This document shows, in pieces, positions 21,264 to 53,907 of a stretch of 64,000 nt of DNA. Source of the DNA: Xanthomonas sacchari (lineage in GTDB: Bacteria; Pseudomonadota; Gammaproteobacteria; Xanthomonadales; Xanthomonadaceae). The stretch lies in NCBI RefSeq assembly GCF_024266585.1, contig NZ_CP100647.1, positions 1 through 64,000 of the forward strand. Direction: 5' to 3'. The notes beneath the pieces are model-generated. The model worked only from the letters and a program-made list of their open reading frames with translations. It was not told where the DNA came from and did no database searches. A program made the position numbers and the translations under genes. Within the stretch, counting starts at the first letter, position 1; every line of letters begins with the position of its first letter.

Positions 21264-21318
21264 GTAGGAGCGGCTTCAGCCGCGACCGGGTCCTCCTGGG
21301 AATGCCGTCGCGGCAAAT
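21264..21318 (+). repeat. GTAG-type REP element
   Basis: GTAGGAGCGGCTTCAGCCGC starts here; the part GCGGCTTCAGCCGC is an almost perfect hairpin. The same head occurs at 34980-35002 and, split by an IS110 element, at 52670-52676 plus 53823-53840. GTAG-headed REPs are common in Xanthomonas and Stenotrophomonas. It lies between the convergent ends of xanB2 and the effector gene. Confidence 0.8.
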
Positions 21319-34873: not shown

Positions 34874-35338
34874 GCCGGCCGCACGCCGAGGCGCCTGCAG
34901 TCGACATGCTGCAGGCGCCGGGCAGCAGCCTGCATGACATGCCAACCATCTGCGTGCGCCACGCATCACGCCGGCCTGCGTAGGAGCGGCTTCAGCCGCG
35001 ACGGGGCGTTACCGGTAATGCCCCGCCGCGGCTGAAGCCGTTCCTACGCCAGCACCCGCCACCGCCACGGCCCCGCGATGCCTGCACCCCTGTGACGTTG
35101 GCGGCCAGGTCGTCCGGACCCGGACAGCATCGGTACCACCTCGCGGCCGCCCCCGCTCCTGGCGACACCGCATCGGCCATGCCCTGACCGCATCGCGGCA
35201 GAGGCCAAGCGCCCGGCGCATGCGCAGCGCCGCGCCCCTCGCGCACCACCCGGCTTGCGCCCTGGTCCGTCGTCCCTATCCTTGCCGGACTGCCGCCGAC
35301 GCAATCGTGCCGGTGTCGCCCCGACCGAAGGACCGCCG
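34874..35338. other. Intergenic region with a REP palindrome
   Basis: 465 bp between the S9 peptidase and a small membrane protein gene. Apart from the paired REP at 34980-35047 I see no coding sequence. Confidence 0.6.
34980..35047. repeat. Paired inverted GTAG-type REP
   Basis: GTAGGAGCGGCTTCAGCCGC at the left end is mirrored by GCGGCTGAAGCCGTTCCTAC at the right end. The two arms are separated by about 28 bp that contain GGGGCGTTACCGGTAATGCCCC, itself a smaller palindrome. The whole unit can fold into one long hairpin. Such REP doublets often mark transcript ends or RAYT-mobilised repeats. Confidence 0.88.
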
Positions 35339-52616: not shown

Positions 52617-52676
52617 GTAGGACCGGCAATGCCCGTCGCGGCTAGCAACGAAGCGAAGGTCCTGTCCCTGTAGGAG
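52617..52676. repeat. REP half, left of the IS110 element
   Basis: GTAGGACCGGCAATGCCCGT starts a REP-like unit, and a second head, GTAGGAG, ends at 52676 exactly at the element boundary. The matching remainder AGCGGCTTCAGCCGCGAC starts at 53823 on the other side. Together they rebuild the GTAGGAGCGGCTTC sequence found intact at 21264 and 34980. Confidence 0.8.
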
Positions 52677-52683
52677 TCAACTG

Positions 52684-53607
52684 TCATGCCCCAGCGATAA
52701 CCGGAGGGGCGTACGGTGCCTGATCGCGCGCGATGGCATTGAGCCAGCGCAGGAACTTGTGCATGCAGGCGACGATGGCGACCTTGGCCGGCTTGCCGGC
52801 CGCGCGCAAGCGCGCGTAGGTGTTGGCCAAGGGGGATTTGGCGCGGATGCTGGCCCAGGTGGCCATGTACAGCACGCCTCGCACGTCGGCACGGCCGCCT
52901 TTGATGCGACGTTGGCCTTTCCAGCAGCCGCTGTCGTGATTGAACGGGGCCAGCCCGACCAGGGCGGCGAGCTTGCGTGGCGGCAGCGTGCCCAGCTCTG
53001 GCAACCGCGCGGCCAGGACCGCGCGCAGGATCGTGCCGAGCCCAGGCACCTTGGGCAAGCTCGAGCAGGTCTTGCCCTGCTGCTCGATCTCCTGCGTCAA
53101 TGTCTGGATCTGCTGGTTCAGCAGGGCGACCACCTCTCGGCAGCGGCGTTGCACCTTGGCGCTGGTGATGTGCTCCAGGCGCCGCCGATGGGCATCGCGC
53201 TGGCCCACCAGGGTGGCGCGTAGGTCCAGCAGTTCGCGCAGGGACTGAAGATGCTCGGGCACCACGGTCGTGGGCGTGGCCGGGATGTGCTGGGCGGCGA
53301 TGGCCAGCAGGCGCGCGTCCAGGGCGTCGGTCTTGGCCTGCAGGCCCAAGGCTTGGGCTAGCTTGCGCGGACGATCGGCGGCCATCCGCACTGCCGGCAG
53401 GTCCGCCTCTCGGAGTACCTGCAGCACGGCATGTTCGTAGCCGCCACTGGCTTCCAGCACGATCCGCTCGCAGCCCAGCGCCGCCAGGCGTTGGGCCAGC
53501 GCACGCTGCCCCTGTGGCGTATTGGGTTGGGTCCAGGCCTGCTCGTCCGGCAGGACATGAATGACCAGTTCGGCCTTGGATACATCGATCCCGACATAGC
53601 GCCGCAT
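52684..53607 (-). CDS. IS110-family DEDD transposase (recombinase)
   Basis: Protein of 307 residues starting MRRYVGIDVSKAELVIHVL. The RuvC-like DEDD residues are visible in GIDVSK, VLEASGGYE and KTDALDARLLA, and the C-terminal Transposase_20 domain in GCWKGQRRIKGGRADVRG, which carries the catalytic-serine region (RADVRGVLYMATWA). Full length and without internal stops, so the element may be active. A longer upstream reading would run into the non-coding end that encodes the presumed bridge RNA. Confidence 0.95.
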   Translation of the reverse strand: MRRYVGIDVSKAELVIHVLPDEQAWTQPNTPQGQRALAQRLAALGCERIVLEASGGYEHAVLQVLREADLPAVRMAADRPRKLAQALGLQAKTDALDARLLAIAAQHIPATPTTVVPEHLQSLRELLDLRATLVGQRDAHRRRLEHITSAKVQRRCREVVALLNQQIQTLTQEIEQQGKTCSSLPKVPGLGTILRAVLAARLPELGTLPPRKLAALVGLAPFNHDSGCWKGQRRIKGGRADVRGVLYMATWASIRAKSPLANTYARLRAAGKPAKVAIVACMHKFLRWLNAIARDQAPYAPPVIAGA

Positions 53608-53822
53608 AGACGTTCTCCGCAGTAGACTCAGGAACGAGAGCACTCCTGCCGATGCCCATGCTTGTGGAGTTCGAGCTCGCGACTCGGGCAACTGTTCGGG
53701 CTGATGAGGCAGGAGATACGGGGTGCGGCGGCGCTGACTCCTACTCGTGCTTGCTGGCACTGCGGCTAAACGGCCTGCCGCACTCCGCTCTCACCTATAA
53801 CGATAGACCCTCATTTGACACA
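53608..53822 (-). ncRNA. Candidate bridge RNA in the upstream non-coding end of the IS110 element
   Basis: In IS621 and other IS110-group elements the non-coding end upstream of the recombinase encodes a bridge RNA with a target-binding and a donor-binding loop. On the transposase strand this region contains GTAGGAGTCA (53744-53735), identical to the junction at 52670-52679, and ACAGTTG (53695-53689), identical to the element's downstream end (complement of 52678-52684). These are the kinds of guide matches expected for target and donor loops. The boundaries and the fold of the RNA are not determined here. Confidence 0.6.
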
Positions 53823-53880
53823 AGCGGCTTCAGCCGCGACGGGCGTGACCGAAATTCCGGGTCGCGGCTACGCCGCGCGC
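53823..53880. repeat. REP half, right of the IS110 element
   Basis: AGCGGCTTCAGCCGCGAC followed by GGGCGTGACC and GGTCGCGGCTACGCCGCG. It continues the REP that begins at 52617 and is interrupted by the IS110 element. Confidence 0.8.
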
Positions 53881-53907
53881 AACCGCGGCCGGCATGCGCC
53901 GCGGCGC

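Follow-up and report, generated by a model that had tools for sequence, protein, structure and literature searches.

The window, a 64,000-nucleotide stretch of Xanthomonas sacchari DNA, contains a complete IS110-group IS that very likely works like IS621, that is, by way of a circle, a bridge RNA, and guided insertion into a GTAG REP. Sequence comparison established the ends, the core, the REP specificity, the orientation, the empty sites, and the concordance of guides and targets across relatives (Table 1). Based on its DEDD N-terminal and Tnp C-terminal domains and on candidate D/E/D/D/S residues, the encoded recombinase places the element in the IS110 family, IS110 group. The protein passes the cut-offs of both PF01548 and PF02371, and a phmmer search of the PDB at E ≤0.001 recovered two relatives, ISCro4 (9t56; E 6.2e-20) and IS621 (8wt6; E 1.4e-17). 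In the alignment to these two proteins, the candidate catalytic residues D8, E52, D94, D97, and S226 are all in place.

Table 1. Features of the IS110-group element and its REP target, in window positions
Feature	Position	Strand	Basis
REP head half, left of the element (ctgtagg)	52668..52674	+	Window flank and empty-site comparison
CT core, right (transposase 3') junction	52675..52676	-	Reads AG on the + strand
IS110-group element between core dinucleotides	52677..53822	-	Junctions of 11/11 full own-genome copies and empty sites
IS110 transposase/recombinase, 307 aa	52684..53607	-	PF01548 E 1.7e-17, PF02371 E 9.1e-15
Predicted bridge RNA region; + strand is a full-length sub-threshold match to Rfam RF02234 sX15	53633..53797	-	Rfam match, folds
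Right donor guide ACAAG + C, candidate second handshake base	53660..53665	-	Guide comparison
Left donor guide AACAGTTG (donor end ACAGTTG)	53689..53696	-	Junctions and left-end reading
TCA, candidate handshake guide to donor TGA	53735..53737	-	First base complements donor's last base in 22/24 guide types
Right target guide GTAGGAG (target CTCCTAC)	53738..53744	-	Guide-target comparison
Left target guide TTTAGCCG (target TGAAGCCG)	53763..53770	-	Guide-target comparison
-10-like TATCGT	53800..53805	-	Partner TTGACT at spacing 17, formed only at the joined RE-core-LE circle
CT core, left (transposase 5') junction	53823..53824	-	Reads AG on the + strand
REP stem half, right of the element (cggcttcagccgcgac)	53825..53840	+	Window flank and empty-site comparison

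A preliminary description of this DNA had placed the insertion in a GTAG REP at 52675..53824, and these coordinates proved exact, enclosing a complete element between CT cores. Core to core, its length is 1148 bp; the left end is long (53608-53822, 215 bp), the right end is short, CT alone is repeated, and the donor end abuts and overlaps the transposase stop codon. The genome holds 11 full copies, 6 of them near 100% and 5 at 98% identity to the window copy, as well as one 52-bp match. All 11 junctions read GAAGCCG (10 copies) or GGAGCCG (1 copy)-CT-CCTAC in a single orientation relative to the REP, which bears out the earlier proposal of a CT core on the transposase strand at both ends. The joining of CT to a REP head, a check that the preliminary description had proposed, holds more widely in the window's subgroup: for 66 of the 67 loci bearing the left end of this subgroup a right end was found, reading CT-CCTAC in 65 cases and CT-CCCAC in 1, with a search pattern that itself required CTCC. 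The left core was preceded by CG in 66/66 such loci. A copy with 95.8% identity at the protein level lies at CTGAAACCG-CT-CCTAC in Xanthomonas sacchari NZ_CP010410.1.

When the window flanks are rejoined with one core, they give the same REP, GTAGGAGCGGCTTC, that was previously noted as intact at 21264 and 34980; we confirmed both of these copies and found one more with a single mismatch at 35034 on the - strand. With up to 2 mismatches allowed, the chance mean for this sequence in the window is 0.45, and 3 or more occurrences arose in 1 of 100 shuffles. Across the genome the 14-mer was counted 214 times (109 + 105) versus once for a reversed control, so most REP targets are free. We sought the window's left flank in 20 genomes of the genus and matched it in 14, the own genome included. 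In the 10 syntenic relatives compared, both flanks lay ≤300 bp apart, which leaves no room for the element there. Empty-site sequence was read for 6 of these 10 relatives (L186-L191). Four (L186, L187, L189, and L190) carry GTAGGAGCGGCTTC uninterrupted at the window's locus, the sister-genome arrangement that the preliminary description had suggested looking for, and the other two carry one-base variants of the REP (GCAGGAGCGGCTTC in L191 and GTTGGAGCGGCTTC in L188). A second REP, inverted, stands behind the first in 5 of the 6, with L188 as the exception, and the REP-adjacent sequence in L187 and L191 differs from that of the window.

Read along the transposase strand, the left end presents in order TTTAGCCG, a hairpin, GTAGGAG plus TCA, AACAGTTG, a second hairpin, and ACAAG plus C. 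Both GTAGGAGTCA (53735-53744) and AACAGTTG (53689-53696) occur once on the left end's - strand. The preliminary description had proposed the 10-mer GTAGGAGTCA, the reverse complement of the right junction, as the target guide and ACAGTTG as the donor guide. GTAGGAG within the 10-mer stands as a target guide, whereas the adjoining TCA fits the handshake guide of IS621. ACAGTTG fits the left donor guide, but in this element by itself it is not beyond chance. Both candidates were thus readable, but the left target guide and the right donor guide had been missed. Compared with 2000 dinucleotide shuffles of the left end minus its first 25 bases, the 10-mer match was equalled in 9 shuffles, the 7-base match to the right junction (ACAGTTG) in 268, the 6-base match to the left junction in 1503, and the 7-base match to the reverse complement of the left junction in 708. 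Three of the four junction matches are therefore reachable by chance, and in this element alone only the 10-mer is notable; we rejected the guide matches of this single element as proof.

What decides for guided targeting is the tracking of guides and targets across 105 copies, not this element alone. Of 395 genomes of the family scanned, 56, the own genome included, had a transposase match at E ≤1e-40. The copy set comprised 100 stretches from 41 of the 55 other matching genomes, chosen non-randomly by rank and copy number and partly from places with sX15 matches, together with the 11 own copies and 3 further loci. These 114 oriented loci gave 105 usable copies representing 27 guide types, after the removal of loci whose ends were not matched by the patterns (L103, L142, L022, L183, and L184), three with N stretches, and L139, which lies at a contig end. 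Both flanks were available in 24 of the 27 guide types; L144, L023, and L172 are without a right end.

Based on their left ends, the copies fall into three groups with different targets. Group A (left end TGTGTC; the window's subgroup) targets GTAG REPs, with stems ending in GCCG, GTCG, GGCG, GCGCG, and once ACCG. Group C (left end TATGTC or CATGTC) sits at sites of the form TAACGC/TAACAC, CT, GAATTA/GAGTTA, several with GTTAGGC downstream, which we take to be integron attC sites. For L169-L171 and L173-L182, IS110-group relatives inserted at attC-like sites, the right guides are AATTCAG or AACTCAG and the targets CTGAATT or CTGAGTT. The targets of group B (left end TATC) are REPs of other kinds; compared by eye, one matches the S_sp1 REP tabulated in PMC2817692, and others resemble REPs listed there.

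Across GTAG REPs, other REPs, and attC-like sites, the predicted guides covary with the natural targets, a relationship that is non-significant within groups A and C alone. Over the 24 types, the left guides were identical to their targets at 124/168 positions, against a permuted mean of 59.0, and the right guides scored 106/120, against 48.2; in both cases 0/20,000 permutations, which ignore kinship and phylogeny, were as good. Group B by itself (11 types) gave 59 versus 35.2 for the left guide (0/20,000) and 43 versus 32.2 for the right (3/20,000). In group A (8 types), the left guide scored 36 versus a permuted 32.4 (1998/20,000; non-significant), and in group C it scored 29 versus 27.8 (7963/20,000; non-significant). 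The right-guide extraction pattern for these two groups held guide letters, so that part is not blind. The group A right guide (own 39, permuted 39.0) gives no permutation contrast because its target hardly varies, and that of group C scored 24 versus 22.4 (6014/20,000; non-significant).

Summed over the 105 copies, the left-guide positions comprised 563 identities, 39 wobble-compatible transitions, 5 reverse transitions, and 128 transversions; the right-guide positions over copies comprised 481 paired, 16 wobble, 1 A-C, and 12 other. The right donor guide exactly follows the left end in 22/27 types. The right target guide is followed by a base that complements the last base of the donor in 22/24 types; for the base following the right donor guide, complementarity to the last base of the target holds in only 17/28 type entries. 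It is highly improbable that the recombinase alone recognizes the REP, by sequence or hairpin, and that the guide-like matches are accidental: such recognition would accommodate the three window matches that are within chance and the non-significant left-guide permutation of group A, but it agrees poorly with guides and targets that change together over REP variants and attC-like sites (0/20,000 permutations) and with a wobble bias as expected of RNA pairing. The comparison across copies thus supports the reading given in the preliminary description, with REP targeting, a CT core, and a guide-bearing left end. It also presents a lineage of related IS110 elements whose guides have changed to follow REP variants and attC-like sites, in which natural retargeting is directly readable.

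For this IS621-like reading, we infer a circle, promoter activity, an RNA, its pairing, and strand exchange, which would proceed as follows. The recombinase would excise the element as a circle, the joined ends of which would build a promoter, and transcription of the left end would yield a bridge RNA of ∼165-180 nt. Of the two loops of this RNA, one would pair with both REP halves, the left guide contacting the bottom strand and the right guide the top strand, and the other would pair with the element's own ends. Recombination at CT would then place the circle, in a single orientation, where the head of a GTAG REP meets its stem. The putative promoter TTGACT-17-TATCGT is present at the circle junction in 11/20 distinct group A junctions, including that of the window, and the other nine are lower or different. 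On our own scale the window junction scores 9.5, and none of the 22 distinct junctions from groups B and C exceeds 6.5. A sigma-70 scan of 53500-53900 was negative for both strands, in line with a promoter that would be present in the circle alone.

The RNAalifold consensus of 51 distinct left ends predicts an outer stem and two stem-loops, one for the target and one for the donor, and the guides follow the order and strands of IS621 (PMC11208158). Because the group A consensus fold places part of the guides in paired positions, it is no proof of open loops; the question raised in the preliminary description, whether the guides lie in such loops, is in this way only partly answered. Folding of the window left end was only moderately better than that of shuffles on the transposase strand (-69.4 kcal/mol; z -2.36; 3/200 shuffles), and slightly better still on the antisense strand (-79.4 kcal/mol; z -2.79).

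The kind of system, IS621-like, is known, and the element may already be listed in ISfinder or in supplementary files. IS621 of E. coli is alike in that its recombinase is homologous, its core is CT, its target is a REP, and its long left end encodes an RNA, as predicted here (PMC11208160); the predicted placement of the target loop before the donor loop and the candidate handshake bases also agree with IS621 (PMC11208160, PMC11208158). A circle-junction promoter has been published for IS621 (PMC11208160). However, the REP and the guides differ, and the recombinase is only a distant homologue (E 1.4e-17). Specific insertion into the REP of the species is described for the IS110 family elements ISPpu9, ISPpu10, ISPa11, and ISRm19 (PMC1525189), although in other hosts; the word “Xanthomonas” is absent from the main text of that paper. 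ISPa11 is also unlike the window element in that its RNAs map downstream of tnp (PMC11187229), and the ISEc21 seekRNA system (IS110 type), in which an upstream non-coding region is needed for circle formation and transposition, resembles the arrangement predicted here (PMC11187229). The element is a new natural example, as the preliminary description had put it, but the novelty is modest because REP-targeting IS110 elements and predicted bridge RNAs are already in print (PMC11208160, PMC1525189).

What a specialist would not anticipate is a link to an Rfam family. The left end matches RF02234 (“Xanthomonadaceae sRNA sX15”) over the full model length (1-159), and the match covers the same 165 bp end to end, on the strand opposite the transposase (E 0.0076 in 1.3 kb and 0.002 in 351 bases). 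The score of 30.5 bits is below the gathering score of 55, and the window is not filed as an sX15 member. In 20 genomes of the genus we detected 44 sX15 matches at E ≤0.001, distributed over 11 genomes, with 6 above the cut-off in 2 genomes; there were 0 such matches in the own genome, which is not among the 11 because its match is too weak genome-wide, and 0/14 control genomes had a match. All but one of the genus matches (43/44) lie 21-32 bp from the start of an IS110 transposase on the opposite strand, a count made up of 42 matches, with the transposase starts for L130 and L131 extrapolated from residues 121-299, and one in G010, 26 bp from a full transposase. The 44th, in G019, runs across the edge of a transposase piece with 35% identity and appears to be a remnant. 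The sX15 locus is thus probably the bridge-RNA locus of IS110 elements, either strand-flipped in the annotation or the source of a real antisense RNA, and an orphan sRNA family would gain a probable identity. In the open-licence literature we found nothing linking sX15 to IS110; sX15 is named there in a table of bacterial sRNAs, and the same letters elsewhere denote something else. The main text of PMC11208160 contains neither “sX15” nor “Rfam,” and that of PMC11187229 does not contain “Rfam.”

We lean toward a strand-flipped annotation, in which the named RNA would be the bridge RNA or a fragment of it, as suggested by the near-constant position of sX15 opposite the transposase start. Pairs predicted on both strands, when read on the transposase strand, include 102 G-U versus 33 A-C cells (17 versus 7 columns), an excess that favors a structured RNA on the transposase strand. 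Prediction on the transposase strand yielded pairs with 230 G-U versus 41 A-C, and prediction on the other strand 103 versus 115, indicating that each strand's pair prediction is biased to its own strand; the antisense-only pairs, without a G-U excess, speak against a flip, as does the slightly better fold of the window's antisense strand. Moreover, the Rfam model is of one given strand, and strand-specific data may underlie the paper from which sX15 comes.

Tentatively, sX15 could instead be a genuine antisense RNA over the bridge RNA that tunes transposase translation or titrates the guide RNA, like Asr9, a tested antisense RNA that covers the 5'-UTR of ISPpu9, itself inserted in a REP, and acts on transposase mRNA (PMC8450116). 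Consistent with this, in the genus matches the transposase lies on the strand opposite that modeled by Rfam, and a TANNNT box lies just upstream on the antisense strand in 20/20 elements read (TAGACT in 11). Nevertheless, we saw no -35-like partner for this box, the promoter scan of 53500-53900 was negative on this strand too, and the evolution of pairs leans to the transposase strand. Somewhat more doubtful is the idea that sX15 is a real antisense RNA spanning the whole bridge RNA. Such a natural “anti-bridge RNA” could either block the guide or shield it, and could determine how often the element transposes. Genuine expression of the antisense strand would point to control of bridge RNAs.

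A second Rfam match, to the tick-borne flavivirus xrRNA (16.9 bits; E 0.45), was far under the cut-off and is attributed to chance. We also considered short left-end matches as mini-elements and rejected them: six in G015 lie at contig ends and reflect assembly breaks, and the matches in G000, G005, and G019 appear to be remnants. In the own genome, a related left-end remnant (L242; G000:C1:243040-243691) lies beside a REP stem, with CCTAC ∼85 bp on. The left end represented by L238 and L243 in G019 is split into halves ∼0.86 kb apart, probably by another insertion inside the IS. Among the group B elements tested, 5/7 (L144, L153, L157, L163, and L172) have a REP-like palindrome (GCCGGCC..GGCCGGC) immediately downstream of the transposase gene, and these palindrome-bearing elements insert into other REPs.
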